Assembly: GCA_018433595.1 (NCBI GenBank)
Contig: JAHDQY010000007.1
Coordinates: 1-64,000, forward strand
From: Synergistales bacterium
GTDB taxonomy: Bacteria; Synergistota; Synergistia; Synergistales; Aminithiophilaceae
Length of the DNA: 64,000 nucleotides
Direction: 5' to 3'
Below the pieces are notes generated by a model that was given only the letters and a program-made list of their open reading frames with translations, did no database searches and was not told the DNA's origin. Shown here piece by piece: positions 4,276-27,025 of this stretch; the stretch's first letter is position 1; each line of letters opens with the position of its first letter. Made by a program: the position numbers and the translations under genes.

Positions 4276-6036
4276 TTGCGACGTTTTGTGCCGGCTCTGA
4301 TCCTTGTCTTTTCCCTGCTCCTTATCCCCCTGGCGGCGGGTGCCCAGGAACCGCTCATCGCAGCGGTGAACGTCGAGGGTAACGACAAGGTGGTCCCCGC
4401 TCACATCCTGGGCGTCGTCGGCTCCAAGCCCGGTGATCCCATTGATAAAGAACAGATCCGCAAGGATATCGAGGCCATCTACAGTCTGGGCTTTTTCTCT
4501 CTTGTCGACGTCCGCGTCGACCCCCTGCCGGCGGGCCTGAGCGTCAATTTTATCGTTCAGGAGAACCCCATCGTCCGGGAGGTCCGTTTCGAGGGCAATA
4601 CCGTCTATAGTGACGAACAGCTTCATGAGCTGGTCTTTACGGCCGAGGGCAACGTCTTCAACCGCGTTTTCTTTCGCCATGACCTGCAGCGCATTCAGGA
4701 GCGCTATCAGAAAGACGGCTATGTCCTCGTCAAGATCGGCGACGTCCAGGTCGAAGACGGCATCGTTACCGTCCAGATTCTGGAGCCCCGTGTCGGCGAG
4801 ATCATCATCCAGGGCAACACGAAGACGAAAACGCGCGTCATCGAACGGGAGATCAAGGTCAAGTCGGGCGACATCTTCAATTCCACCGTTCTCCGCCACT
4901 CCCTCAACAGGATCCAGGGCATGGGCTATTTCGAGGACGTCAACGTCGGCTTCGAGCCTACCGAATCTCCCGAGGTGATCAACCTCGTCCTCACGGTCGT
5001 GGAGCAGAAGACAGGTCGGATCGGCCTTTCCATCGGCCACGGCTCCGAGAGCGGCTGGAGCGGGGGTCTCAGCTATGAGGACACCAACTGGCAGGGGCTG
5101 GGCCACAAGGCCTCCATCGGCTTCGAGACGGGTGACCGCCAGCAGTACTGGATCTCCTACGAGCAGCCTTACATGGATTTCGAAACCTACGCCTGGCGCG
5201 TCGGCGTCTATAAGCGCGAGTGGGAGGATCTGGACTACTATCTTGACGGCGTCATCCACCTTCAGGACTACGAGGAGGACCGGACCGGAGCCTATGTCGG
5301 GGTCGGCAAAAAGTTCCGCAACGAGCTTTACAGCTGGTATGTCACCCTCGACTGGCGAGAGACGGAGATCCGAGGCGATACGGCCAACTACAAGGGGACG
5401 GACCTCACCTACGAGGAGTTCCGCAAGCAGTATCTCAAGGACGGCAAGACCTTCTCCGTGACGGGGATGCTGAAGCGGAGCAACCTCGACGAGCTCCTGA
5501 GCTACCCTAAGGGTGATGTCGAATCGATCAACGTCGAGAAGGCCTTCGAGGTTCTGGGGGGCGAGTACGACTACACGAAATACTGGATCGAGGCTCGATA
5601 CTACACCCCCGTCTCGTTCCTTCAGGATATTCTCGACTCTCAGATCGGCGACGAGGACAACCCCATTCTCTTCGCTGCCCGCGTCCGATCAGGCTGGTCC
5701 AACGGCGACCTTCCCGCCGCCGACCAGTATGAGGTCGGCGGCAAGTCGACGCTCCGGGGCTTCAAGGACGATAAGTTCAAGGGCGAGGAGATGTTTCTGG
5801 CTAACCTGGAGCTTCGAGTTCCCATCGAAAAGGCCTTCTCCTTCGTCCTCTTCTACGACACGGGGATGGCCTGGTCCTCGACGCACGACATCCATAACAG
5901 CTACAGCCTCTCCGATCTGGAAAGCTCCGTCGGTTTCGGCGTGCGGGTGAGGACGCCCATCGGGAACCTCCGCTTCGACGTGGCCGAGGGAGACGAGGAG
6001 ACGAGGACTCATTTCGGCTTCGGCGAGCTTTTTTAA
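4276..6036 (+). CDS. bamA: Outer membrane protein assembly factor BamA
   Basis: A 586-residue Omp85 protein that folds beta-barrels into the outer membrane. A signal peptide (about residues 1-24, ending in 'AAGAQ') is followed by three POTRA domains at about 26-97, 98-170 and 171-243, each with the 'VxxxGN' start. The C-terminal barrel begins at about 250. It carries the family's lid-loop motif as 'TLRGF' and ends in phenylalanine, the usual barrel recognition residue. E. coli BamA has five POTRAs and about 810 residues, so this is a short version. The start is a TTG with AAGGAGAGG upstream; the alternative is a downstream start that would cut the signal peptide. It precedes the lipid A genes directly, as in many diderms. 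Confidence 0.95.
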   Translation: MRRFVPALILVFSLLLIPLAAGAQEPLIAAVNVEGNDKVVPAHILGVVGSKPGDPIDKEQIRKDIEAIYSLGFFSLVDVRVDPLPAGLSVNFIVQENPIVREVRFEGNTVYSDEQLHELVFTAEGNVFNRVFFRHDLQRIQERYQKDGYVLVKIGDVQVEDGIVTVQILEPRVGEIIIQGNTKTKTRVIEREIKVKSGDIFNSTVLRHSLNRIQGMGYFEDVNVGFEPTESPEVINLVLTVVEQKTGRIGLSIGHGSESGWSGGLSYEDTNWQGLGHKASIGFETGDRQQYWISYEQPYMDFETYAWRVGVYKREWEDLDYYLDGVIHLQDYEEDRTGAYVGVGKKFRNELYSWYVTLDWRETEIRGDTANYKGTDLTYEEFRKQYLKDGKTFSVTGMLKRSNLDELLSYPKGDVESINVEKAFEVLGGEYDYTKYWIEARYYTPVSFLQDILDSQIGDEDNPILFAARVRSGWSNGDLPAADQYEVGGKSTLRGFKDDKFKGEEMFLANLELRVPIEKAFSFVLFYDTGMAWSSTHDIHNSYSLSDLESSVGFGVRVRTPIGNLRFDVAEGDEETRTHFGFGELF

Positions 6037-15045: not shown

Positions 15046-16799
15046 GGCGCCTTCGCTCTTCCGTCTACCTTCGTCTGCTTCTCCAGGTCCGCCCCTATCT
15101 CGGTCGGGTCGGCCTCGCCCTGGTCTGCATGTTTCTCGCTTCGGCCTGCAACGTGGCGCCGCCGTGGCTCCTCAAGAACGTCGTCGACGACGTTCTCATC
15201 GCGAAGAACACCCTGCTGCTTAACGTCCTCTCCCTGGGGATCGTCGTCCTCTTTCTCATCAAGGGGGTCGCCGGCTATGGCCATCAGTATCTGATGAGCT
15301 GGATCGGGCAGCGTGTCGTCATGGATATCCGCCTCAAGCTCTACGAACACATGCAGAGCCTCTCCTTCCGCTATTTTCATGCCAGCCGCGTCGGCGAGCT
15401 TCTGTCTCGGGTCACCAACGACGTCAACGTCCTGCAGTCGCTGGTCACGACGGTTCTCGTCGATCTCGTCATCCAGGCGGTCAGCTTCGTCGCCATCCTG
15501 GGTTTCCTCTTTTACCTCAACTGGCGTCTCACTCTGGTCACCTTCGCCGTGCTCCCGCTGGCGGGGTGGGTTATCGACCTGGCCGCCAGAAAGCTTCGCC
15601 GGGTGGGCCACGAAATACAGGAGCAGCTGGCCCGCCTCTCGGCCATCGCCGAGGAGGCCCTCTCATCGATCCGCATCGTCCGCATCTTCGCCACCGAGGA
15701 GGAGGAGCTGGGCCGCTTCAGCGAGCAGAATCGGGCCAACTTCCGCTCTCTCATGAGAGGGACTCAGATCCATGCGGCTCTCTCGGGTGCCGTCGAGGTC
15801 ATCCTCATCGTTGCTCTGGCCCTGATCCTCTGGCTGGGAGGACGGGATGTCATCGGCGGGCGCCTCACGCCCGGCGAGCTGATCGCCTTTCTCGGCTATC
15901 TCGTGCTTCTCGTCCAGCCGATCCGCGTCGTCAGCCGCGTCGTCAGCCAGGTGCAGCAGGGGCTGGCCGCCGCGGACCGCATTTTCGACGTCATGAGCAA
16001 AAGGGGCGAGGTCCTGCCTCCGAAGCATCCCGTCCTCCTCGATTCGCTTAAGGGGGAAATCCTTTTCGAAAACGTCTGGTTCGCCTACGAGGGGGAGCGT
16101 TGGGTGTTGCGGCAGGTCAGCTTCCATGTCGCCCCAGGCGAGACGGTGGCCCTCGTTGGGGCGACAGGGGCCGGCAAGTCGACGGTGGCCGATCTGATCC
16201 CCCGCCTCTATGATCCCCAGAAGGGGCGGATTTTCATCGACGGCCATGACGTCCGCTGCCTCGATCTCCCGACGCTGCGGCGCCATATCGGCGTCGTCCC
16301 TCAAGATTCTCTGCTCCTCAAAGGGAGCCTGGCTTTCAACGTCGCCTACGGCTGTCCCGAGGCCACCGAGGACGAAGTGCGCCGCGCTCTCGACGAGGCG
16401 GGACTCTCCGGTTTTCTGGCTACCCTTCCCGAGGGGCTGGAGACGGAAATCGGCGAACGGGGCATTACCCTGAGCGGCGGCCAGCGGCAGCGCGTCGCCA
16501 TCGCCAGGGCTCTGGTCCGGAACCCCCGGATTCTCATCATGGACGAGGCCACCTCCTCCCTCGATGCCGCCGTGGAACAGCAGATTCAGGAGGCGATGCA
16601 GCGTGCGGCCCGGGGACGCACGTCGCTGATCATCGCTCACCGCCTCTCGACGATCCGCCAGGCCGACCGCATCATCGTCATCGAGGGGGGCACCGTCGTC
16701 GAAGAGGGGAGCCATGACGACCTGATCGCCCTGCAGGGGCGGTACTGCCGTCTTTATTCGCTTCAGTTCGGGCTTGATGATGGGACATCTCATCGATAG
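15042..16799 (+). CDS. msbA: Lipid A export ABC transporter MsbA
   Basis: A 585-residue half-transporter that flips core-lipid A across the inner membrane as a homodimer. Six membrane helices occupy about residues 20-320. The ATPase follows, with Walker A 'GATGAGKST', Q-loop 'VVPQDS', signature 'LSGGQRQRVAIARA', Walker B 'ILIMDEATS' and the H-loop in 'IAHRLSTI'. General multidrug/lipid exporters look alike, so MsbA is inferred from its place between lpxB-type genes and lpxK, the classical msbA-lpxK order. Confidence 0.9.
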   Translation: MRRLRSSVYLRLLLQVRPYLGRVGLALVCMFLASACNVAPPWLLKNVVDDVLIAKNTLLLNVLSLGIVVLFLIKGVAGYGHQYLMSWIGQRVVMDIRLKLYEHMQSLSFRYFHASRVGELLSRVTNDVNVLQSLVTTVLVDLVIQAVSFVAILGFLFYLNWRLTLVTFAVLPLAGWVIDLAARKLRRVGHEIQEQLARLSAIAEEALSSIRIVRIFATEEEELGRFSEQNRANFRSLMRGTQIHAALSGAVEVILIVALALILWLGGRDVIGGRLTPGELIAFLGYLVLLVQPIRVVSRVVSQVQQGLAAADRIFDVMSKRGEVLPPKHPVLLDSLKGEILFENVWFAYEGERWVLRQVSFHVAPGETVALVGATGAGKSTVADLIPRLYDPQKGRIFIDGHDVRCLDLPTLRRHIGVVPQDSLLLKGSLAFNVAYGCPEATEDEVRRALDEAGLSGFLATLPEGLETEIGERGITLSGGQRQRVAIARALVRNPRILIMDEATSSLDAAVEQQIQEAMQRAARGRTSLIIAHRLSTIRQADRIIVIEGGTVVEEGSHDDLIALQGRYCRLYSLQFGLDDGTSHR

Positions 16800-19029
16800 C
16801 TATCTCCGCTTCGCCAAGGGCGAAAGGAGCCCCCTCTCTCCGTGGGTCCTTCTCCTTCCGGCTGGTCTGATCGGGAAAGGCTATTCCAGGCTGCGGAACG
16901 GCCTCTTCGATCACGGCCTTCTCCCTGTCGAAGAGGCTCCGTTGCCGGTGATCAGCGTCGGCAATCTCACCGTCGGCGGCACGAACAAGACGCCCTTCGT
17001 CGAGATGCTGGCCCGACGCCTTGAGGAGATGGGGCTCCTCCCGGGGATTCTCTCCCGCGGTTACGGCGGGCGGGCCGGTGATCCCGTCATCATCCGGGGC
17101 GGCCGGGGTGACCGCTCCCTTGTCGGCGACGAACCTCTTCTGCTCTCGGGGCGTCTCCCTCACGTGCCGGTCGTCGTCTTTCCCGACCGCGTCCGAAGCG
17201 CCCGCCTTCTCGCCCGGGAGAGCGTCGCCGTCGCCGTCGCCGATGACGCCTTCCAGCATCGCCGTCTCGACCGCGACGTCGATGTGGTCCTTGTCGACGC
17301 CTGCTGTCCCTTCGGCAACGGCCGCATCGTGCCGGCCGGGACTCTCCGCGAGGGCCTGGAGGGGCTTCGCCGGGCCCATCTTGTCGTCATCACCAAATAC
17401 GATCAGGTCTCTCCGGAAGCTCTCGCCGCCCTGGTCATGCAGCTCTCCTCTCTGGTGGGACGGGAGCAGCTCTTCCTCTCCCGCCTCTGCCTTGAAGGCT
17501 GGAGCCGCTGGTCGGGGCGATGGATCGACAGTGTCGAGGCACCTCAGGGAAGGGCCTTCGCCTTCTGCGCCATCGGAAGTCCCTCCAGTTTCCGGTCGTT
17601 TCTCCTTGCCCAGGGCCTGGAGCTGGCCGGCGAACGGTTTTTCAGAGATCACCACCGTTTCGGTGCCGAGGAACTGACCGCTCTCGAGGCGGAAGCGCTG
17701 CGTCTCGGAGCGGATTATCTTGTCTGCACCGAAAAGGATGTCTATAACGTCCCTTCGGACTGGCAGCCTCAAGTGCCTCTCCATGTCCCCCGCGTCGCCT
17801 CCGTCGTCGATGACGAACCCCGATTCTGGCGGTCTCTCGTCGAGGCCCTGAAGCCGCGGTTCGTCGTCGTCACCAACGGGCATGGCGAAGACGCCATAGG
17901 GGCCGAGCTTGCCGGGAAATTGCGCCGATCTTTCCCCGCTTCCGAGGTTTACGCCTTCCCCCTTGTCGGAAGGGGAGTTCCCTACGAAAGGAAGGCCGTC
18001 CCCGTCGTGCCGCCGCCTTCGGTTACCCCGAGCGGAGGCGTTGTCAAGTACAGCCTCAGGGTGCTCTGGCAAGACCTGAGAGCGGGCCTTCTGCCTCAGA
18101 TTCTGGCCCAGCTCCGTTCCTGGCGGACCCTTCGCAGCCGATGCCGTACTCCCTTGTGCCTCGGTGATGTCTACCTCTTTCTTCACACCCTCTGGGGGCA
18201 GGGGCGAAAACCGCTCCTCGTCGCCACGGCGAAGACGGCCCTTCTTTCGGGTCACTTCCGCCTGGAGAGCTGGCTCCTGCGGCGTCGCTGCCGGGCCGTC
18301 TGGACCCGCGACGAGGCGACGGCCCGGCAGCTTCGAAGTCGGGGTCTCGAGGCTCGTTTCGCCGGCAATCCCATAATGGACCTCTTAGGTGATAATGATA
18401 GAGACGGGCTTCTCCTTCCCCCGTCCTCGGAGAGAATCCTTGTCCTTCCCGGCAGCCGCGATCGGGCCTATGACGATATCGGGCTGATCCTGGAGACGGT
18501 ACTGCTTCTCCATCGGCGGGGGAGAGACGATTTCCTCCTCGTTCCGGCGCCGACGCTGGAGCTGTCGAGGCTTCTGGGAGCCGCACCGCAGTGGCGTCTT
18601 GCAGGGACGGATCGCCTTCTTCATGACGGGGGTGCGAGGATCCACCTCTTCCAGGGGCCGGTGGCGGTGGCGGCGCGTCAGAGCCGCCTTGTCCTGGGGC
18701 TGGGAGGAACGGCCAATCAGGTCTGTGCCGGCCTCGGCCTTCCCGTCGTCTCCGTCAGGGAAAAGGGCAAGGAGGTCCAGCAGAAACTGCTCGGCGAGGC
18801 GGAGCGTCTTGTTCCCCCTCAGCCCGAGGCTCTGGCTGACGCCATCGATGAGATTCTCGGCGACGGAGAGCTTTTTCGACGCATGTCCGAAGCGGGCAAA
18901 AGGCGTCTCGGCGGCCCCGGCGCCCTTGATGATCTCATCTCCTTTGCCGGCGGGACCCTCGGATGGGAGGCCCGCCACGTGCTCTATGTGAAGCTTTCAG
19001 GTAAACTCAGAGGAGGAGAACCGATGTGA
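16777..19029 (+). CDS. lpxK: Fusion: tetraacyldisaccharide 4'-kinase LpxK + LpxB-like glycosyltransferase
   Basis: A single open frame of 750 residues. Residues about 1-355 are LpxK, which phosphorylates the 4' position of the lipid A disaccharide at the inner membrane. Landmarks are an N-terminal amphipathic/hydrophobic segment, 'ISVGNLTVGGTNKTPF', 'SRGYGG', 'DDAFQHRRL' and 'VDACCPFGNGRIVPAG'. From about residue 361 a second domain starts with 'VVVTNGHGEDAIGAELAG'. It continues through 'LPGSRDRAYDDIG' to 'GLGGTANQVCAGLGLPVV', the pattern of the LpxB-related family found in cyanobacteria. Single-domain LpxK is about 330 residues. The Walker A motif reads GGTNKTP where GGTGKTP is usual. Start ATG at 16777 (16780 also possible), overlapping msbA. 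Confidence 0.85.
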   Translation: MMGHLIDSYLRFAKGERSPLSPWVLLLPAGLIGKGYSRLRNGLFDHGLLPVEEAPLPVISVGNLTVGGTNKTPFVEMLARRLEEMGLLPGILSRGYGGRAGDPVIIRGGRGDRSLVGDEPLLLSGRLPHVPVVVFPDRVRSARLLARESVAVAVADDAFQHRRLDRDVDVVLVDACCPFGNGRIVPAGTLREGLEGLRRAHLVVITKYDQVSPEALAALVMQLSSLVGREQLFLSRLCLEGWSRWSGRWIDSVEAPQGRAFAFCAIGSPSSFRSFLLAQGLELAGERFFRDHHRFGAEELTALEAEALRLGADYLVCTEKDVYNVPSDWQPQVPLHVPRVASVVDDEPRFWRSLVEALKPRFVVVTNGHGEDAIGAELAGKLRRSFPASEVYAFPLVGRGVPYERKAVPVVPPPSVTPSGGVVKYSLRVLWQDLRAGLLPQILAQLRSWRTLRSRCRTPLCLGDVYLFLHTLWGQGRKPLLVATAKTALLSGHFRLESWLLRRRCRAVWTRDEATARQLRSRGLEARFAGNPIMDLLGDNDRDGLLLPPSSERILVLPGSRDRAYDDIGLILETVLLLHRRGRDDFLLVPAPTLELSRLLGAAPQWRLAGTDRLLHDGGARIHLFQGPVAVAARQSRLVLGLGGTANQVCAGLGLPVVSVREKGKEVQQKLLGEAERLVPPQPEALADAIDEILGDGELFRRMSEAGKRRLGGPGALDDLISFAGGTLGWEARHVLYVKLSGKLRGGEPM

Positions 19030-19766
19030 CCACCCTTGCCGTCATTCCCGCCCGTCTCGGCAGCACCCGGCTGCCGGGCAAGCCTCTTGTCGAGATCGGA
19101 GGAGTTCCTCTTGTCGTGCGGGTTCTGCGCCGCGTTCAGCGCTGCCGGACCATCGACCGCGTCATCGTTGCCGCCGACGATGAGCGCGTCGTCGAGGCCG
19201 TCTCCGCCTGCGGCGCCGAGGTCGTCATGACGCCGGCCGACCTTGCCAGCGGCGGTGACCGTGTCGCCTGGGTCGCCCGAAAGAGACCCGAGGCCGGGAT
19301 CGTCCTCAACATCCAGGTCGACGATCCCCTTGTCGGACCTGATCTCATCGATCCTCTCGTGGCGGCCCTCGAGGAGCGGCCCGACGTCTCTCTGGCCCTC
19401 GCGGCCAAGCGGATCGAGAAGGAGGAGGAGATCGGCAATCCCAACATCGTCAAGACTGTCTTCTCGCGTCGAGGCGAGGCCCTCTACTTCAGCCGCTCTC
19501 CGATTCCGTACCCGCGCAACCCGGGCGGCTGCTGGTACAAGCATATCGGTCCCTACGTCTATCGGCGGGAGCTCCTTCTCCAGTTCTCCGCTTGGCCCCG
19601 GACGCCTCTCGAAGAGACGGAAAGTCTCGAGATGCTTCGCCTTCTCGAACGGGGAGAGACGATTCTCGTCGTTCCCGTGGAGCGGGATACCATCGAAATT
19701 GACACTCCCGAAGACGTGGCGGCGCTGGAGCGCTATCTCAGAGAAAAAGGGGACGACCTCCTATGA
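19026..19766 (+). CDS. kdsB: CMP-Kdo (or CMP-Kdo8N) synthetase KdsB
   Basis: Cytidylyltransferase that activates Kdo with CTP. It is 246 residues, normal length. The CTP site is '[16 protein letters not shown]'; '[14 protein letters not shown]' and 'IEIDTPEDV' are typical of the family. Two signature stretches differ from the usual form: 'NIQVDDPLV' where 'NxQGDEP' is expected, and 'SGGDR' where 'SGTDR' is expected. The metal-binding aspartate appears kept. Given the kdnB-kdnA pair downstream, the enzyme may prefer 8-amino-Kdo; this is inference. GTG start overlapping the lpxK-fusion stop. Confidence 0.88.
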
Positions 19767-20623
19767 TTCGCCCTGTCGCTATCGGAAAGATCCTCGTCGG
19801 CGAGGGCCCTCTCGTCGTTGTCGCAGGTCCCTGTGTCATCGAAAGCGAAGATCTGGCTTTCGAGACGGCCCGCCGGGCGAGCGAGATCTGCTCCTCCCTC
19901 GGTCTGCCCTACATCTTCAAGGCCTCCTTCGACAAGGCCAACCGAACCTCCATTCACAGCTTCCGAGGTCCCGGCCTCGACGAGGGGCTGAGGATTCTCG
20001 ACGGCATCAAAAAAACGATCGGCTGCCCCGTTCTCACCGATATCCACGAGCCCTGGCAGGCCGAACCCGTCGCTGCCGTGGCCGACGTGCTTCAGATTCC
20101 GGCCTTTCTCTGCCGCCAGACGGACCTTCTCGTCGCCGCCGCCGAGACGGGACGGGCGGTCAACGTCAAGAAAGCCCAGTTCCTGGCGCCTCAGGACATG
20201 AAAAGTGTCGTCGAGAAGTGCCGTCAGGCTGGCAACGAGAAGGTGATCCTCTGCGAGCGGGGGACCTCCTTCGGCTATCGTCAGCTTGTCGTCGACTTTC
20301 GCTCTCTCCCCCTGATGCGGGAGCTGGGCTGTCCCGTCATGTTCGATGCCACCCACAGCGTCCAGATGCCCGGAGGACAGGGGAGCTCTTCCGGCGGCGA
20401 CCGCCGCTTCGTCCTGCCTCTGGCCCGGGCCGCCGTCGCTCTCGGCGTCGACGCGCTCTTTGTCGAAACCCATCCCGATCCGGCCGCGGCCCGGAGCGAC
20501 GGCCCCAATATGGTGCCTCTTTCGAGGTTGAGGTTCCTCCTGGAAGAGCTTGTCGCCATCGACGGCCTGGTCCGGGGCAGGCTGGGACCGGCGGTTCTCG
20601 ACTGGGCCGAGGAACGGCCATGA
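19763..20623 (+). CDS. kdsA: Kdo-8-phosphate synthase KdsA
   Basis: Condenses phosphoenolpyruvate with arabinose-5-phosphate to Kdo-8-phosphate. It is 286 residues forming one (beta/alpha)8 barrel. Family marks are '[10 protein letters not shown]' near residue 20, '[12 protein letters not shown]', 'LTDIHEP', '[15 protein letters not shown]' and 'FDATHSVQ'. The 'CERG' cysteine matters because metal-dependent KdsA carries a cysteine early in the barrel, here at 'GPCVIES'; the enzyme is therefore likely the metal-dependent type. Overlaps by four bases on both sides. Confidence 0.95.
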
Positions 20624-21615
20624 AGACCTCCTGCGACAAGGTCTGGACCGACCAGGAGCTGCTTGCCACGGGGCGGGCCGTCCTCTTCGACGAAGCCCGG
20701 GAGCTTCAGGCCGCCGCCGATCGTCTCGGCATGGAGCTCGTGGAGGCGGCGAGACTGATCCACCGCTGCAAGGGGCGGGTCGTCGTCGTCGGCCTGGGCA
20801 AATCGGGCCTGATCGGAAGGAAGATCGCCGCGACGCTGGCCTCCCTCGGAACGCCCGCCTTTTTCCTTCATGCCGCCGAGGGTGTCCACGGCGACCTCGG
20901 CATGGTCCGTCCCGAGGATGTGGGCCTTTTCATCAGTAACAGCGGTGAAACCCGGGAGGTCCTGGAGCTGATTCCCTTCTTCCGCCGCATCGGCGCCGCC
21001 GTCGTCGCCTTTTCCGGCCGGAGCGCCTCCCGCCTGGCCCGCGAGGCCGACGTCGTCCTCCTGACGACGGTGACGCGCGAGGCCGATCCTCTGGGTCTGG
21101 CCCCGACGAGCAGCACCACGGTCCAGCTCGCCGTCGGCGATGCCCTGGCCGCCATGGTCACCGAACTTCGAGGCCTTCGCCAGGAGGATTTCGCCCTCTT
21201 CCACCCCGGGGGCGCCTTGGGGAGGAAGCTGCTGCTTCGCGTCGAAGACCTGATGGGACCGTCGGAAAGGCTCCCCCTCGTCTGCCGGGAGGCGTCCGTC
21301 AAGGACGCCCTCTTCGAGATCACCAGCAAGGGTTACGGGGCAACCGGTGTCGTCGACGCCGAAAGAAGGCTCGTCGGAATTTTCACCGACGGGGACCTGC
21401 GCCGCCTCCTCGAGCGCCGCGGCGTCCAGGCCATGGAGGACCCCATCACTCAGTCGATGACGAAAAACCCCAAGGTCATCTCTCCCGACAGACTTGCCGT
21501 AGAGGCCCTGCGTCTCATGGAGAAGTGGGAGGTGACGGTCCTCGTCGTCGCCGTCGAGGGGTGTCCCGTGGCGATGATCCACCTTCACGACCTGCTCAAG
21601 GCCGGGCTCGCCTGA
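20620..21615 (+). CDS. kdsD: Arabinose-5-phosphate isomerase KdsD/KpsF
   Basis: Interconverts ribulose-5-phosphate and arabinose-5-phosphate, feeding KdsA. It is 331 residues. A SIS sugar-isomerase domain at about 40-190 contains '[20 protein letters not shown]' and '[11 protein letters not shown]'. A CBS pair follows at about 205-330 ('[13 protein letters not shown]'). The family histidine occurs in 'EGVHGDLGM'. The ATG at 20620 overlaps the kdsA stop. The long in-frame extension upstream is the other frame of kdsB/kdsA. Confidence 0.94.
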
Positions 21616-21619
21616 GGAG

Positions 21620-22873
21620 ATGATGAGGCTCTATCCGGCACTTCTGGCGACGTTCTACCTGGCCGCCTATCCCTGGCTTGCCCGACGCTACCGCGAAGGT
21701 TTCGACGAACGGCGCGGTATCTACGATAAACTGACTATTCCGGAGGGGCGGCGCCCTCTCTGGGTCCATGCCGTCTCCGTCGGCGAAGTCCAATCGGCGT
21801 CACCTCTCCTGCGTCTTGCCAGAGAGACCGCAGGCGACATGCCGCTTCTTCTTTCGACGGTGACGGCTACGGGGCGTCAGATGGCCGACCGGATCCTCGA
21901 CGGAGTCATCGACGGTCACGTCTACTACCCCTGGGATGTCTCCTGGATCGTCAGGCGCGCTCTTGAGGCCCTTCGTCCACGCTGCTATGTCGCCGTCGAG
22001 ACCGAGATCTGGCCCGGCCTCCTTGAAGCGCTCGGCAGGCGGGACGTCCCCGCCTTCCTCGTCAACGGCCGTCTTTCCGAGCACTCTTTCAGGCGCATGA
22101 GCCGATGGCCTTCCTTCTGGCGGGAGGCCTACGGCTTCTTCGAAAGGATCCTGGTCCGGGCCGACGACGACATGGAACGCTTTCTTGCGCTGGGAATCGC
22201 CCCGGAAAAGCTGCACCTGACCGGCGATCTCAAGATCGACGCCCTGCTTCATCGCCACCGGCGGGCGGACCTCACCCGGGTTCGGCAGGTGACCGCCGGC
22301 GAAGGGCCGCTTTTCGTCGCCGGAAGCACTCACGAGGGGGAGGAGGCGATCGTTCTGGAGGCCTTCCGCCGTCTCCGGCTCATTGCCCCATCGGCCCGGC
22401 TTGCCGTTGTTCCCCGCCATCCCGAGAGGGCGTCTTCGGTCCTCTCCCTCTGCCGGGAGGCCTTCCCCTCCTCCCTCCTGTCGCAAAGGAGGGCTGGCTG
22501 GGATATACTGGTCGTCGATCAGGTGGGGCTCCTTTTCGACCTCTACGGAGTCGCCGTGAGCGCCTTTGTCGGAGGGAGCCTTGTTCCCCGGGGAGGGCAG
22601 AACCTGCTTGAACCCGCCTGCTGGGGACTTCCGCTCTCTCATGGCCCGCACATGGAGGATTTCGCCCTCTCGGCCCGTGACCTTGCCCGGGTCGGCGTGG
22701 CTCATGTCGTCGAGGATGCCGCGGAGATGGCCCGATTCTGGATGCAATCGCTTGATGGCGCCTTTCAGTCCCGGGCTGCGGAAGGCGCCGGGGCCTTTTT
22801 CGAAGCCCAGGGAGGGGCCGCTTCTCGGGTGTGGAGCTTTATGGAACCCTATTTGAATCAAAACAGGAGATGA
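21620..22873 (+). CDS. waaA: Kdo transferase WaaA (KdtA)
   Basis: Transfers Kdo from CMP-Kdo to lipid IVA on the inner leaflet. It is 417 residues of GT-B fold with a short N-terminal hydrophobic anchor (about 3-20). The catalytic glutamate is in 'VHAVSVGEVQSA'. 'ETEIWPGLL', 'LVNGRLSEHSFRR' and 'FVGGSLVPRGGQNLLEP' are classical WaaA marks. Two adjacent ATGs (21620, 21623) follow GAGGAG. Whether it adds one or more Kdo units cannot be told. Confidence 0.94.
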   Translation: MMRLYPALLATFYLAAYPWLARRYREGFDERRGIYDKLTIPEGRRPLWVHAVSVGEVQSASPLLRLARETAGDMPLLLSTVTATGRQMADRILDGVIDGHVYYPWDVSWIVRRALEALRPRCYVAVETEIWPGLLEALGRRDVPAFLVNGRLSEHSFRRMSRWPSFWREAYGFFERILVRADDDMERFLALGIAPEKLHLTGDLKIDALLHRHRRADLTRVRQVTAGEGPLFVAGSTHEGEEAIVLEAFRRLRLIAPSARLAVVPRHPERASSVLSLCREAFPSSLLSQRRAGWDILVVDQVGLLFDLYGVAVSAFVGGSLVPRGGQNLLEPACWGLPLSHGPHMEDFALSARDLARVGVAHVVEDAAEMARFWMQSLDGAFQSRAAEGAGAFFEAQGGAASRVWSFMEPYLNQNRR

Positions 22874-22877
22874 TGCC

Positions 22878-24038
22878 ATGAACTTCAGTATGTTCCTCTC
22901 GGGCCGGATCAGCTTCGGCCCAGGAGTGTCGTCCCAGGTGGGTTTCCAGGCCAAAAAACTCGGCGCTTCACGGGCTGTCCTCGTCACCGACAAGACAATG
23001 GAGGCCCTGGGGCTGGCCGACAGGATCGGCGATCATCTCTCCGAGGCCGGTGTCGAGACCTGTCTTTTCACCGGCGTCGAACCCGAGCCCTCGGTGGAGA
23101 CGACCGACGCCGTTGCCCAGCTGGCCCGCCAGCAGGACTGCCAGCTCGTCGTCGGCCTCGGCGGAGGAAGCAGCATGGACGTGGCCAAGGCCGTCAGCAT
23201 TCTCATCACCAACGAAGGTTCCGCCGCCGACTATCAGGGACTGGGACTCGTAAAAAACCCCGGCGTCCCCAAAATCATGATCCCCACGACGGCCGGGACG
23301 GGGTCGGAAGTCACCTTCACGGCCGTTCTCATCCGCCGCAGCGACGGTGTCAAGGGCGGCATCAACGACGACAAGCTCTTCCCCGACTACAGTCTCCTCG
23401 ACCCCGAGTTGACCCTCTCCATGCCGCCCCAGGTGACGGCTTCGACGGGAATGGACGCCCTCTGCCATGCCCTGGAGGCCTACACGAGCCGCCAGGCCTC
23501 TCCTTTCAGCGATCTCTTCGCCGAAGAGGCCCTCATGCGTATCGGCTCCTGGTTGCGGGTGGCCACCCTCAACGGCAAGGACCTCGAGGCGCGGAGCGAG
23601 ATGATGCTCGCCGCCCTCTACGGAGGCATCGCCCTGGCCAACGCCGGCGTCACGGCCTGCCACGCCCTCTCCTACCCCCTGGGAGGCATGTTCGGCATCG
23701 CTCACGGCCAGGCCAACGCCCTCCTCATTCCCTATGTGGCCCGATTCAACGCCCTGGCCCGGCCGGACAAGTTCTCCGCCGCCGCATCCCTGCTCGGCTA
23801 CATCGAAGAAGAGATCCCGCAGCGCGATGCGGCCCTTCTCTGTGCCGACGCCCTTGAAGAGCTCTCCGAAGATCTGGGCCTTCCCCGTACGCTGAAACAG
23901 CTCAAGGCGGGCATCACCCCCGCTCATTTCGACGAAATGGCCGAAAAGGCCCTTGCCGTGGCCCGCCCCATGGAAAACAACCCCCGCGTCATGACCAAGG
24001 AAGACTGCATCACCCTTTACAGGGAGGCGATGGAATAA
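22878..24038 (+). CDS. kdnB: Iron-dependent alcohol dehydrogenase, predicted KdnB (Kdo 8-dehydrogenase)
   Basis: A 386-residue group III metal-dependent alcohol dehydrogenase. The NAD site is 'VVGLGGGSSMDVAKAV', followed by 'TTAGTGSEVTF'. Metal ligands are in 'TGMDALCHALEAYTS' and 'GIAHGQANALL'. On sequence alone the substrate is open (butanol-type dehydrogenases share all this). It lies immediately after waaA and overlaps a DegT aminotransferase by one base. In Shewanella oneidensis a similar pair, KdnB and KdnA, converts Kdo to 8-amino-3,8-dideoxy-Kdo. I therefore predict that it oxidises the C8 hydroxyl of Kdo. The family is sure; the specific role is likely but not shown. Confidence 0.68.
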   Translation: MNFSMFLSGRISFGPGVSSQVGFQAKKLGASRAVLVTDKTMEALGLADRIGDHLSEAGVETCLFTGVEPEPSVETTDAVAQLARQQDCQLVVGLGGGSSMDVAKAVSILITNEGSAADYQGLGLVKNPGVPKIMIPTTAGTGSEVTFTAVLIRRSDGVKGGINDDKLFPDYSLLDPELTLSMPPQVTASTGMDALCHALEAYTSRQASPFSDLFAEEALMRIGSWLRVATLNGKDLEARSEMMLAALYGGIALANAGVTACHALSYPLGGMFGIAHGQANALLIPYVARFNALARPDKFSAAASLLGYIEEEIPQRDAALLCADALEELSEDLGLPRTLKQLKAGITPAHFDEMAEKALAVARPMENNPRVMTKEDCITLYREAME

Positions 24039-25237
24039 TGCCCGGCTTTGAACTGTTCGACCAGAGGGAGATCGATGCCCTCGCTGACGTGATCAACCGC
24101 AAGATGGTTCACCGCTACTCCTTCAATGACAGCCGCGGCGGCATCTACCGCGTCGAGGAATTCGAACGGGCCGTCGCCGATCATGTCGGCGCCCGCCACT
24201 GTCTTGCCGTCAGCAGCGGCTCGGCATCGCTCTATGTGGCCATGAAGGCCTGCGGCATCGGCCCCGGCGACGAGATCATCACCTCGCCCTTCACCTTCAT
24301 CGCCAGCATCGAGGCCATTCTCGAGTGCGGCGCCGTCCCCGTTCTGGCCGAGATCGACGAGAGCCTCAACCTCGACCCCGAATCGGTCAAGCCGCTTATC
24401 AACGAGAGGACCAAGGCGGTCATGCCCGTCCACATGTTCGGATCGGCCGCCGACATGGACGCCTTCGGCCGCCTCTGCGCCGACTACGGCCTGGCCCTCT
24501 TCGAGGACTCCTGCCAGGCCATGGGGGCCACCTTCCGGGGACGCTCCGCCGGAACCTTCGGCCTCTGGGGAACCTACAGCCTCGACCCCTACAAGATCAT
24601 CACCGTCGGCGAGGGAGGCCTCATCGTCACCGACGACGAGGAGCTCTACCGCCGCATGGAGTACTATCACGACCACGGCCACATCCATGACAAGACCATC
24701 GACAGAGGGGCGGAAGGCAAGCACTGCCTGGGCTTCAACTTCCGCATGAGCGAGCTCCAGGGTGCCCTGGGCCTGGTTCAGCTGACCAAGCTCGAAGGGG
24801 CCCTGGCCGCCCTGAGGGGTCACAAGAGGGCCATCCTTGAGGCCGTGGCCGACCTTGGCCTCGCCTACAGAGTCCATGCCGACCCCGAAGGGGACAGCGC
24901 CACCCAGATCGTCTTCCTCCTCCCCGACGAGGCCTCGGCCCGGCGGTTCCAGAAGGCGTCGAAGGAGGTCGGCGTCGGCTGCGGCAACCTCTCCGACAAC
25001 ACCTGGCACTACGCCCGGCATTGGCAGACCCTTCGCGACGGAGCCCTCTACAGCCGGACCCGCTGTCCCTACGACTGTCCCTATGTGGAGGCCATGCCCG
25101 AATATCGCCCCGTCGAATGGCCCCGAACCCATGCCGTCCTGAGCCGGACGGCTGTCTACGGCCTCTCTATCGCCATGATGGAGGAGCAGATCGGAAAGAT
25201 CGTCAAGGCCATCAGGGCCGGAACGGCCGCTCTCTGA
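24038..25237 (+). CDS. kdnA: DegT/DnrJ/EryC1 aminotransferase, predicted KdnA (Kdo8N synthase)
   Basis: A 399-residue PLP-dependent sugar aminotransferase. 'SSGSASLYVAMKACGIGPGD' binds the cofactor phosphate, 'FEDSCQAMGA' holds the ring aspartate, and the Schiff-base lysine is in 'YSLDPYKIITVGEGG'. With the dehydrogenase before it, it would transaminate the 8-aldehyde of Kdo to give 8-amino-Kdo. The opening 'MPGFELF' and the segment 'DPEGDSA' agree with my memory of S. oneidensis KdnA; an alignment is needed to confirm. The start overlaps the kdnB stop as TAATG. It is the last gene before a 62-bp palindrome that closes the operon. Confidence 0.7.
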   Translation: MPGFELFDQREIDALADVINRKMVHRYSFNDSRGGIYRVEEFERAVADHVGARHCLAVSSGSASLYVAMKACGIGPGDEIITSPFTFIASIEAILECGAVPVLAEIDESLNLDPESVKPLINERTKAVMPVHMFGSAADMDAFGRLCADYGLALFEDSCQAMGATFRGRSAGTFGLWGTYSLDPYKIITVGEGGLIVTDDEELYRRMEYYHDHGHIHDKTIDRGAEGKHCLGFNFRMSELQGALGLVQLTKLEGALAALRGHKRAILEAVADLGLAYRVHADPEGDSATQIVFLLPDEASARRFQKASKEVGVGCGNLSDNTWHYARHWQTLRDGALYSRTRCPYDCPYVEAMPEYRPVEWPRTHAVLSRTAVYGLSIAMMEEQIGKIVKAIRAGTAAL

Positions 25238-25392: not shown

Positions 25393-26511
25393 ATGGCAGG
25401 AGAGCCGAGGGAGAGGATCGCCTTTCTCGACGCCTTTCGCGTCGTCATCGTTTTTGCCGTTGTCAGTCTCCATGCCGCCATGAGCTATATGACTTACGCC
25501 CCTTCCTGGTGGTACGTCATCAACCCCGAGAGAAGCTGGGCCTTTCTGGCCTGGGTTCTCCTGGCCGACACCTTTCCCATGCCGGCCCTCTTTTTCGTCT
25601 CCGGCATCTTCGCCTCGCCGTCGCTGGAAAAGAGAGGGAAGGGGGACTTCCTTAGGGATAAGGCGCTTCGCATCGGCCTCCCCTGGGCCGTCGGCGTCTT
25701 GGCCTTCGCCCCCCTTTTTGCCCGGGCCAGCTGGAAATCTCTCGGTCTTTCTCTGCCTGACGGCTATGGGCGGTTTCTGACCACGATCTGGCTGGGGCCC
25801 GGTTATCAGCAGGCCCATTTCTGGTTCCTTGGCGTCCTCCTCGCCTTTTTCCTCTTCTTCGCCGCGGTCTCTTCCCGCCAAGGCCGCTTTGCTTTGGGCT
25901 TCAAACTTCGACCCGGAGCCGGGCTCGCCCTCTGGTGGACCCTGGCGACGGTCTCTTTCTTTCTCTCTTCCCTCCGCTGGGATCCAAATTCCTGGATTTC
26001 TCTGGGACCTCTCTACTTTCAGCCGGCCCGGATCGTCTCCTATCTGGCGGCCTTTTGGCTGGGGACTCTGGCCTGGCGGAACCGGGAACGGTGGCTCCAT
26101 GATGAGCCTGGAAGAAAGTCCCTTTTTCTGTCGGCGTTGGCCGCCCTGACAGGGAAAGGGGCGGTGCTGGCGGCGGCCTTCATCTTCCCCGTCAAAGAGG
26201 GGCTGCTTCCCAAGGCGCTGGCGGCGGCGGCCCACAATTGGGGAGCCCTTTCGATGGGCCTTTTCCTCTTCCTCATCTGCCGGACCTTCGCAGAGAGCTA
26301 CTCGCAGCGATGGCGCCGGTGGGGAGAGGCCTCCTACGGTATCTACTGGCTTCACCAGATGATCCTCATGCCCCTGGCGGCCTTTCTGGTCTCCTTTGAC
26401 CTGCCTCCGGCGGTGAAGTTCGCCCTGGCCCTTGCCGGAACCTGGGGAATCTCTTCGGCCCTGACGGAACGGGCCTTGAGGCGCCTTCCTCTGATGAGGC
26501 GGGTCTTCTGA
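25393..26511 (+). CDS. Acyltransferase 3 family membrane protein
   Basis: A 372-residue integral membrane protein with about ten hydrophobic segments. It belongs to the acyltransferase-3 family (OafA/OpgC-like), which acylates sugars of LPS, capsule or glucans from the cytoplasmic side. The family start is 'RIAFLDAFRVVIVFAVVSLH', with the catalytic-type histidine at the end of the first segment, and 'PMPALFFVSG' and 'YGIYWLHQMIL' follow. The ATG at 25393 has AAGGGGG upstream. The target is unknown; being next to the LPS operon makes LPS a reasonable guess. A TACAAT hexamer at 25343-25348 could be its -10, without a clear -35. Confidence 0.85.
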   Translation: MAGEPRERIAFLDAFRVVIVFAVVSLHAAMSYMTYAPSWWYVINPERSWAFLAWVLLADTFPMPALFFVSGIFASPSLEKRGKGDFLRDKALRIGLPWAVGVLAFAPLFARASWKSLGLSLPDGYGRFLTTIWLGPGYQQAHFWFLGVLLAFFLFFAAVSSRQGRFALGFKLRPGAGLALWWTLATVSFFLSSLRWDPNSWISLGPLYFQPARIVSYLAAFWLGTLAWRNRERWLHDEPGRKSLFLSALAALTGKGAVLAAAFIFPVKEGLLPKALAAAAHNWGALSMGLFLFLICRTFAESYSQRWRRWGEASYGIYWLHQMILMPLAAFLVSFDLPPAVKFALALAGTWGISSALTERALRRLPLMRRVF

Positions 26512-26590: not shown

Positions 26591-27025
26591 ATGGCAATGC
26601 AGATCAGTTTGGACGAGATCATCTCCATGCTTTTGGCCCGCGTCGAGAGCCTGGCTTACTCGGCGGAGAACCAGAAGACCCGCTTCAATGTGATGGCCAG
26701 GGTCCTCTACCGCAAGGGACTCCTCTCCGACGAAGATGTTCTCGATGCCGTTCGCGACGAGCACCATCTTCTGAAGGATCTGGGGCTCATTGAAGAGATG
26801 CCCGACGAGGAGATGCTCCGGGCGGCGGCTGAAAGCCTTCTTCAGTGGATCAAGGGGGATGCCGCCGAGATCCGGCGGACCATGGAGGAGTACGAAAACA
26901 AGATGCGCGAGATGGCGACGAAAGAGGCGGTCAAGCCGCGGATTGACGTGGCTCCCGCCAGCACCCTCTCTCAGCTCGACAAGTTGAGCGGCAAGAAGCC
27001 CGGCGGCGGCAAGCTCATCCTCTGA
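26591..27025 (+). CDS. Small helical protein of unknown function
   Basis: I do not recognise this 144-residue soluble protein. It is predicted largely alpha-helical: residues about 5-80 form several amphipathic helices ('RFNVMARVLYRKGLLSDEDV' looks like a helix-turn-helix-sized unit). Residues 85-115 are a charged stretch likely to form a coiled coil, and the tail is glycine/lysine-rich. There are no membrane segments and no cysteines. It has a strong ribosome site (GGAGGAGGG) and its own promoter-like element, and it ends in front of a long hairpin shared with glgC, so it seems to be a single-gene unit. Confidence 0.7.
   Translation: MAMQISLDEIISMLLARVESLAYSAENQKTRFNVMARVLYRKGLLSDEDVLDAVRDEHHLLKDLGLIEEMPDEEMLRAAAESLLQWIKGDAAEIRRTMEEYENKMREMATKEAVKPRIDVAPASTLSQLDKLSGKKPGGGKLIL

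Follow-up and report, generated by a model that had tools for sequence, protein, structure and literature searches.

Among the sugars of LPS, Kdo is conserved best. A pathway that involves KdnA, KdnB and KdsB and leads to its amino derivative, 8-amino-3,8-dideoxy-Kdo (Kdo8N), was reportedly described in Shewanella oneidensis by Gattis et al. in 2013. According to reviews, Kdo8N takes the place of Kdo in the LPS of Shewanella (PMC3210612, PMC6357163), and in the literature that we found it is called a hallmark of this genus. One paper names a Kdo8N cytidylyltransferase, by annotation, in Pseudoalteromonas, and one predicts the Kdo8N pathway in gut microbiota data. In the case of Synergistota, our search of the literature found no LPS structure of any member of the phylum.

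The window, i.e., the whole 64,000-nucleotide stretch of DNA analysed here, comes from a genome of a Synergistales bacterium (2.53 Mb in 72 contigs); of the named records, those of Synergistota strain L-13 and of a Synergistaceae MAG are closest to it. An operon in this window quite likely serves the synthesis of Kdo8N, which would be put on lipid A, probably replacing Kdo. The relevant features are the following:

19026..19766, + strand: kdsB2, KdnA-associated KdsB type (predicted CMP-Kdo/Kdo8N synthetase); above the cut-offs of NCBIfam KdsB models; type of at least 52% identity
19695..19697, + strand: codon of KdsB Glu224, of putative role, two residues before catalytic Asp226 (E. coli Gly233/Asp235)
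19763..20623, + strand: kdsA, Kdo-8-phosphate synthase; NCBIfam NF003543, 425 bits, above cut-off
20620..21615, + strand: kdsD, arabinose-5-phosphate isomerase; SIS and two CBS domains
21620..22873, + strand: waaA, Kdo transferase; Pfam PF04413, 190.8 bits, but under the NCBIfam equivalog cut-off (296 vs. 438)
22878..24038, + strand: Fe-type alcohol dehydrogenase (ADH), proposed NAD-dependent Kdo 8-dehydrogenase (KdnB step); Pfam PF00465 and PF25137; coupled to kdnA in 30/30 loci
24036..24040, + strand: TAATG stop-start overlap of the dehydrogenase gene and kdnA, one base shared
24038..25237, + strand: kdnA, DegT aminotransferase; PF01041, 281 bits; 5k8b, 313.6 bits; KdnA clade; K186

The dehydrogenase gene and kdnA are the last genes of the kdsB-kdsA-kdsD-waaA operon. 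Their overlap, their position directly behind waaA and the intact active-site motifs of both families, all claimed in the initial annotation, were borne out: the ADH start lies 4 bases on from the waaA stop and is preceded by AGGAGA. The distance between the ADH gene and kdnA is from -1 to +4 bp in all 30 Synergistota loci, 24 of which have TAATG at the junction. Since the gene order is repeated in relatives and the junction is this tight throughout, the arrangement goes beyond chance. It would fit a need for equal dosage, or a hand-over between the aldehyde-making and the aldehyde-using enzyme. The neighbourhood of the operon includes a single ORF (16774-19029, +) in which LpxK (residues 25-357) is fused to a domain related to lipid-A-disaccharide synthase (211 bits for TIGR03492, slightly below the cut-off of 219); comparably long single ORFs match it in relatives. 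Downstream of kdnA, the same strand encodes an MdoC-like protein of the Acyltransferase-3 family (25417-26511, +), and a 144-residue ORF (26591-27025, +) without a match in Pfam.

The identity of the aminotransferase as KdnA, proposed in the initial annotation, is well supported by sequence comparisons. Its best match in PDB is S. oneidensis KdnA (5k8b), aligned over the full length (residues 1-395), while the second one, perosamine synthetase, reaches 178 bits and covers only residues 39-259. A tree of 85 DegT proteins does not group it with other sugar aminotransferases and places it inside a clade of 65 KdnA-like proteins, which includes the S. oneidensis enzyme (SH-aLRT 100) and most members of which begin with MPGFE or a near variant; the 20 other DegT proteins, one of them from the window genome, fall outside. 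The PLP lysine is K186. Distant aminotransferases of the MPGFE family are encoded beside sialic-acid-synthesis-like genes (locus L077, 9986-11167) or have Fe-ADH genes and other cytidylyltransferase-like genes as neighbours (L353-L355), and possibly act in the amination of other ulosonic acids. At two other loci (L054 and L056, of Smithella and of a deltaproteobacterial MAG), a KdnA of the Synergistota type (52%), which may have been acquired by lateral transfer, has no ADH or kdsB gene adjoining; KdsB with the Glu discussed below is encoded elsewhere in these genomes.

The metal ligands of the window ADH (D193, H197, H262, and H276) are intact, as is the GGGS coenzyme motif at position 95. 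The claim that this protein is KdnB holds for its equivalent genomic place and not for its subfamily. Its match to KdnB (5k8c) scores 123 bits, as compared to 254-268 bits for NAD-dependent methanol and 1,3-propanediol dehydrogenases (268 for the former), and it stays below every NCBIfam cut-off. Window-type ADHs form in our trees a separate Synergistota clade, adjoining kdnA and lying outside the KdnB clade (support of 96/97 and 99/99, respectively, in a broader Fe-ADH tree). The window ADH does not belong to the KdnB subfamily proper, but appears to be a functional match of KdnB. It represents the third type of ADH that is encoded beside kdnA, and its clade is KdnA-linked throughout. Sulfurivirga (602 bits to 5k8c), Thiomicrospira, and Prevotellaceae encode true KdnB next to kdnA and kdsB. 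In other Synergistota, kdnA is adjoined by the gene of a divergent KdnB-like ADH (30-33% identity to KdnB, sister to KdnB at 100/100, metal ligands kept), usually located between kdsB and kdnA. Four kdnA genes (L052, L063, L066, and L071) have no adjoining ADH gene.

As to the origin of the window-type ADH, the KdnB profile and the tree favour a distant sister of KdnB over an independent recruit. The KdnB profile scores window-type proteins at 150-178 bits and all other sampled Fe-ADHs at 142 or less, and a branch with 97/93 support places 37 other Fe-ADHs on one side of the broader tree. The alternative, in which the pair makes Kdo8N with an NAD-dependent Fe-ADH that was recruited independently and replaced KdnB non-orthologously, has nearly an even chance of being correct: the window-type profile scores other Fe-ADHs at up to 400 bits and KdnB at no more than 177, the stems in the tree are long, and a clade of window-type and unlinked Synergistota ADHs was not rejected by the AU test (p 0.132). 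This alternative is compatible with the synthesis of Kdo8N by the operon, as it concerns the history of one step and not the product. The view that the window ADH is unrelated to KdnB was softened: the first tree was unrooted and silent on this point, the broader tree and profiles favour a sister relation, and the AU test is compatible with either. The Tyr of the CHALSY metal motif was discarded as a feature that would link the window ADH to KdnB, as it is frequent in unlinked Fe-ADHs.

The use of O2 by KdnB is presumed here from its PDB name (8-oxidase). A search of 21 Synergistota genomes for cytochrome bd and haem-copper oxidase found neither, and hence an O2-using oxidation would be odd in this phylum. 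In the window ADH, the coenzyme-determining position is occupied, according to an alignment of the VTD motif, by Asp38, and the matching position has been tied to NAD+ (PMC5125639). The simplest guess is that the step is probably NAD-dependent.

The kdsB gene of the operon encodes a second type of KdsB, a newly noticed component that tracks KdnA. KdsB proteins of 61 Synergistota genomes were divided into groups of at least 52% or at most 47% identity to the window copy, the former being assigned as KdsB2. Both KdsB2 and KdnA are encoded by 35 of these genomes and neither by 22, with one genome encoding KdnA only and three encoding KdsB2 only (Fisher test, 2e-12, uncorrected for relatedness). 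The sole genome with KdnA only is 80% complete and has no KdsB match at all, and in two of the three with KdsB2 only, the cluster is interrupted by a contig end. Within families f3, f4, f5, and f10 the distribution is patchy, and the two genes move together. Eight KdnA genomes of this set possess the standard kdsB as well; in the dual-KdsB Synergistota genomes that were inspected, kdsB2, the ADH gene, and kdnA constitute a separate cassette. Two KdsBs are encoded also by Thiomicrospira and Sulfurivirga. The window genome encodes KdsB2 as its only KdsB, which has the KdsB fold (AF2 model with pLDDT of 94 and TM of 0.92 to 1gqc), the catalytic Asp pair, and other conserved site residues. The absence of standard KdsB suggests that Kdo8N is used there in place of Kdo. 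The initial annotation, which saw a branch from Kdo, was probably too cautious in this respect: the amino sugar remains the likely product, and the side branch gives way to a probable replacement.

A candidate selectivity residue of KdsB2 is Glu224, whose position in ordinary KdsBs is occupied by Gly, Ser, Asn, or Ala. The Asp that follows it by two residues corresponds to the one that binds the Kdo-activating metal, D219 in Aquifex (PMC3149649) and, by alignment, D235 in E. coli. Glu at this position is present in 80 of 87 KdnA-associated KdsBs and in 3 of 94 others, in several phyla; counted here are 13 genomes of Bacteroidota that were sampled for their KdnA, with kdsB located elsewhere, and two deltaproteobacterial MAGs. 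The Fisher test of this association is inflated by relatedness. On the tree, the state changes about 6-7 times, and the independent-pairs test gives 2:0, which is not significant, the test having no power. It is plausible, and a strong lead, that the Glu carboxylate holds the 8-ammonium of Kdo8N. A geometric argument, by which Glu224 and Asp226 would point the same way on a strand, was abandoned, as a confident model has both in a loop. The seven KdnA-associated KdsBs without Glu have Cys (four), Gly (two), or Ser (one). Cys at this site (L381, L382, L386, and L211) was seen in KdnA-bearing genomes only, namely, three of Bacteroidota and one Synergistota MAG. Glu occurs as well in divergent gammaproteobacterial KdsBs of one clade (L365, L368, and L370 of genomes G184, G167, and G152, respectively), the genomes of which lack KdnA; these KdsBs may handle another modified Kdo.

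A natural comparison is provided by the 97% complete genome G017, where kdsB2, kdsD, waaA, and the ADH gene are in the window order and KdnA is absent, with no remnant downstream. In its ADH (locus L142, G017:C3:72000-83000, 4443-5693), three of the four metal ligands have been lost, with Asp and one His replaced by Ser and another His by Asn, and the Glu position of its KdsB is occupied by Ser. The joint loss of KdnA, the ADH ligands, and the KdsB Glu is what a shared pathway predicts. The frame of this window-type ADH gene is intact, and the protein has perhaps a new role or is in early decay.

A possible, if doubtful, reading is that KdsB2 is an ordinary lineage-specific KdsB, its Glu unrelated to the amino group, and that both Kdo and Kdo8N are activated. 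The small number of independent changes on the tree and the Glu/KdnA exceptions in both directions speak for it, whereas the standard copy kept beside the KdnA-linked KdsB in Synergistota and in Thiomicrospira and Sulfurivirga, and the Ser at the Glu site in KdnA-less G017, speak against it. Another sugar, either a nucleotide sugar or a different ulosonic acid, is improbable as the substrate of the ADH and the aminotransferase, in which case the two would have no more than the operon in common with the Kdo genes: DegT and Fe-ADH are broad families, and the distant MPGFE-family members have the sialic-acid-like and other cytidylyltransferase-like neighbours mentioned above, but the window KdnA shares its clade with a characterised enzyme, the fixed partner of the pair is a KdsB and not nucleotide-sugar genes, and all three features are lost together in G017.

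In the preferred scheme, KdsA and KdsD, together with a phosphatase, would supply Kdo, the 8-hydroxyl of which would be oxidised to an aldehyde by the coupled Fe-ADH, probably with NAD+. KdnA would convert the 8-aldehyde to the 8-amine by transamination, the dedicated KdsB2, in which Glu224 may hold the 8-ammonium, would produce CMP-Kdo8N, and WaaA would transfer Kdo8N to lipid A. KdnA-like proteins (E up to 1e-70) are encoded also by 9 of 369 sampled gammaproteobacterial genomes, a sample that does not contain S. oneidensis, and by 25 of 346 genomes of Bacteroidota; in both samples, the weakest matches may be other enzymes of the MPGFE family. Tentatively, and with somewhat less than even confidence, we propose that Kdo8N, rather than being a hallmark of Shewanella, is widespread in several phyla as an alternative to Kdo. 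Over much of Synergistota, it would have become the sole lipid A-linking ulosonate, made by way of a Kdo 8-dehydrogenase of the NAD type, which would suit anaerobes, and fixed by a KdsB that recognises the amino group through Glu at the place of E. coli Gly233, so that a single residue would mark amino-Kdo in genomes. If so, Kdo would be replaced by a positively charged sugar in many members of this phylum of anaerobes, the inner core would differ in charge, and the analysis of such LPS by mild-acid hydrolysis would be misleading. Any genome could be checked for amino-Kdo by sequence, through the pair of KdnA and KdsB with Glu, and in the second KdsB type, a single mutation would allow a direct test of the selectivity of this enzyme for its substrate.

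Compared to the S. oneidensis pathway, the window locus has a KdnA ortholog, an adjoining Fe-ADH gene, and kdsB in the same cluster, with Kdo8N-lipid A as the expected product. It differs in the ADH being of another subfamily, in the genes being built into the kdsB-kdsA-kdsD-waaA operon, and in the host being an anaerobe without terminal oxidases, while KdnB is named an 8-oxidase. The window ADH shares with KdnB (FeADH3, cd08184) the fold family, metal ligands, genomic place, and proposed reaction. However, the two belong to separate clades, and the window profile scores KdnB under most ordinary Fe-ADHs. The closest to the window ADH by pairwise or profile score are the NAD-dependent Fe-ADHs, i.e., methanol dehydrogenase 8zrl, 1,3-propanediol dehydrogenase 3bfj, and ErcA, from which it differs by its own, kdnA-tied clade, below every NCBIfam cut-off. 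KdsB2 resembles KdsB/KpsU of the E. coli type in fold (TM of 0.92 to 1gqc), the catalytic Asp pair, and conserved site residues, but has Glu in place of Gly two residues before Asp, Met in place of Gln in ESLEQLR, and QVDDP in place of QGDEP.
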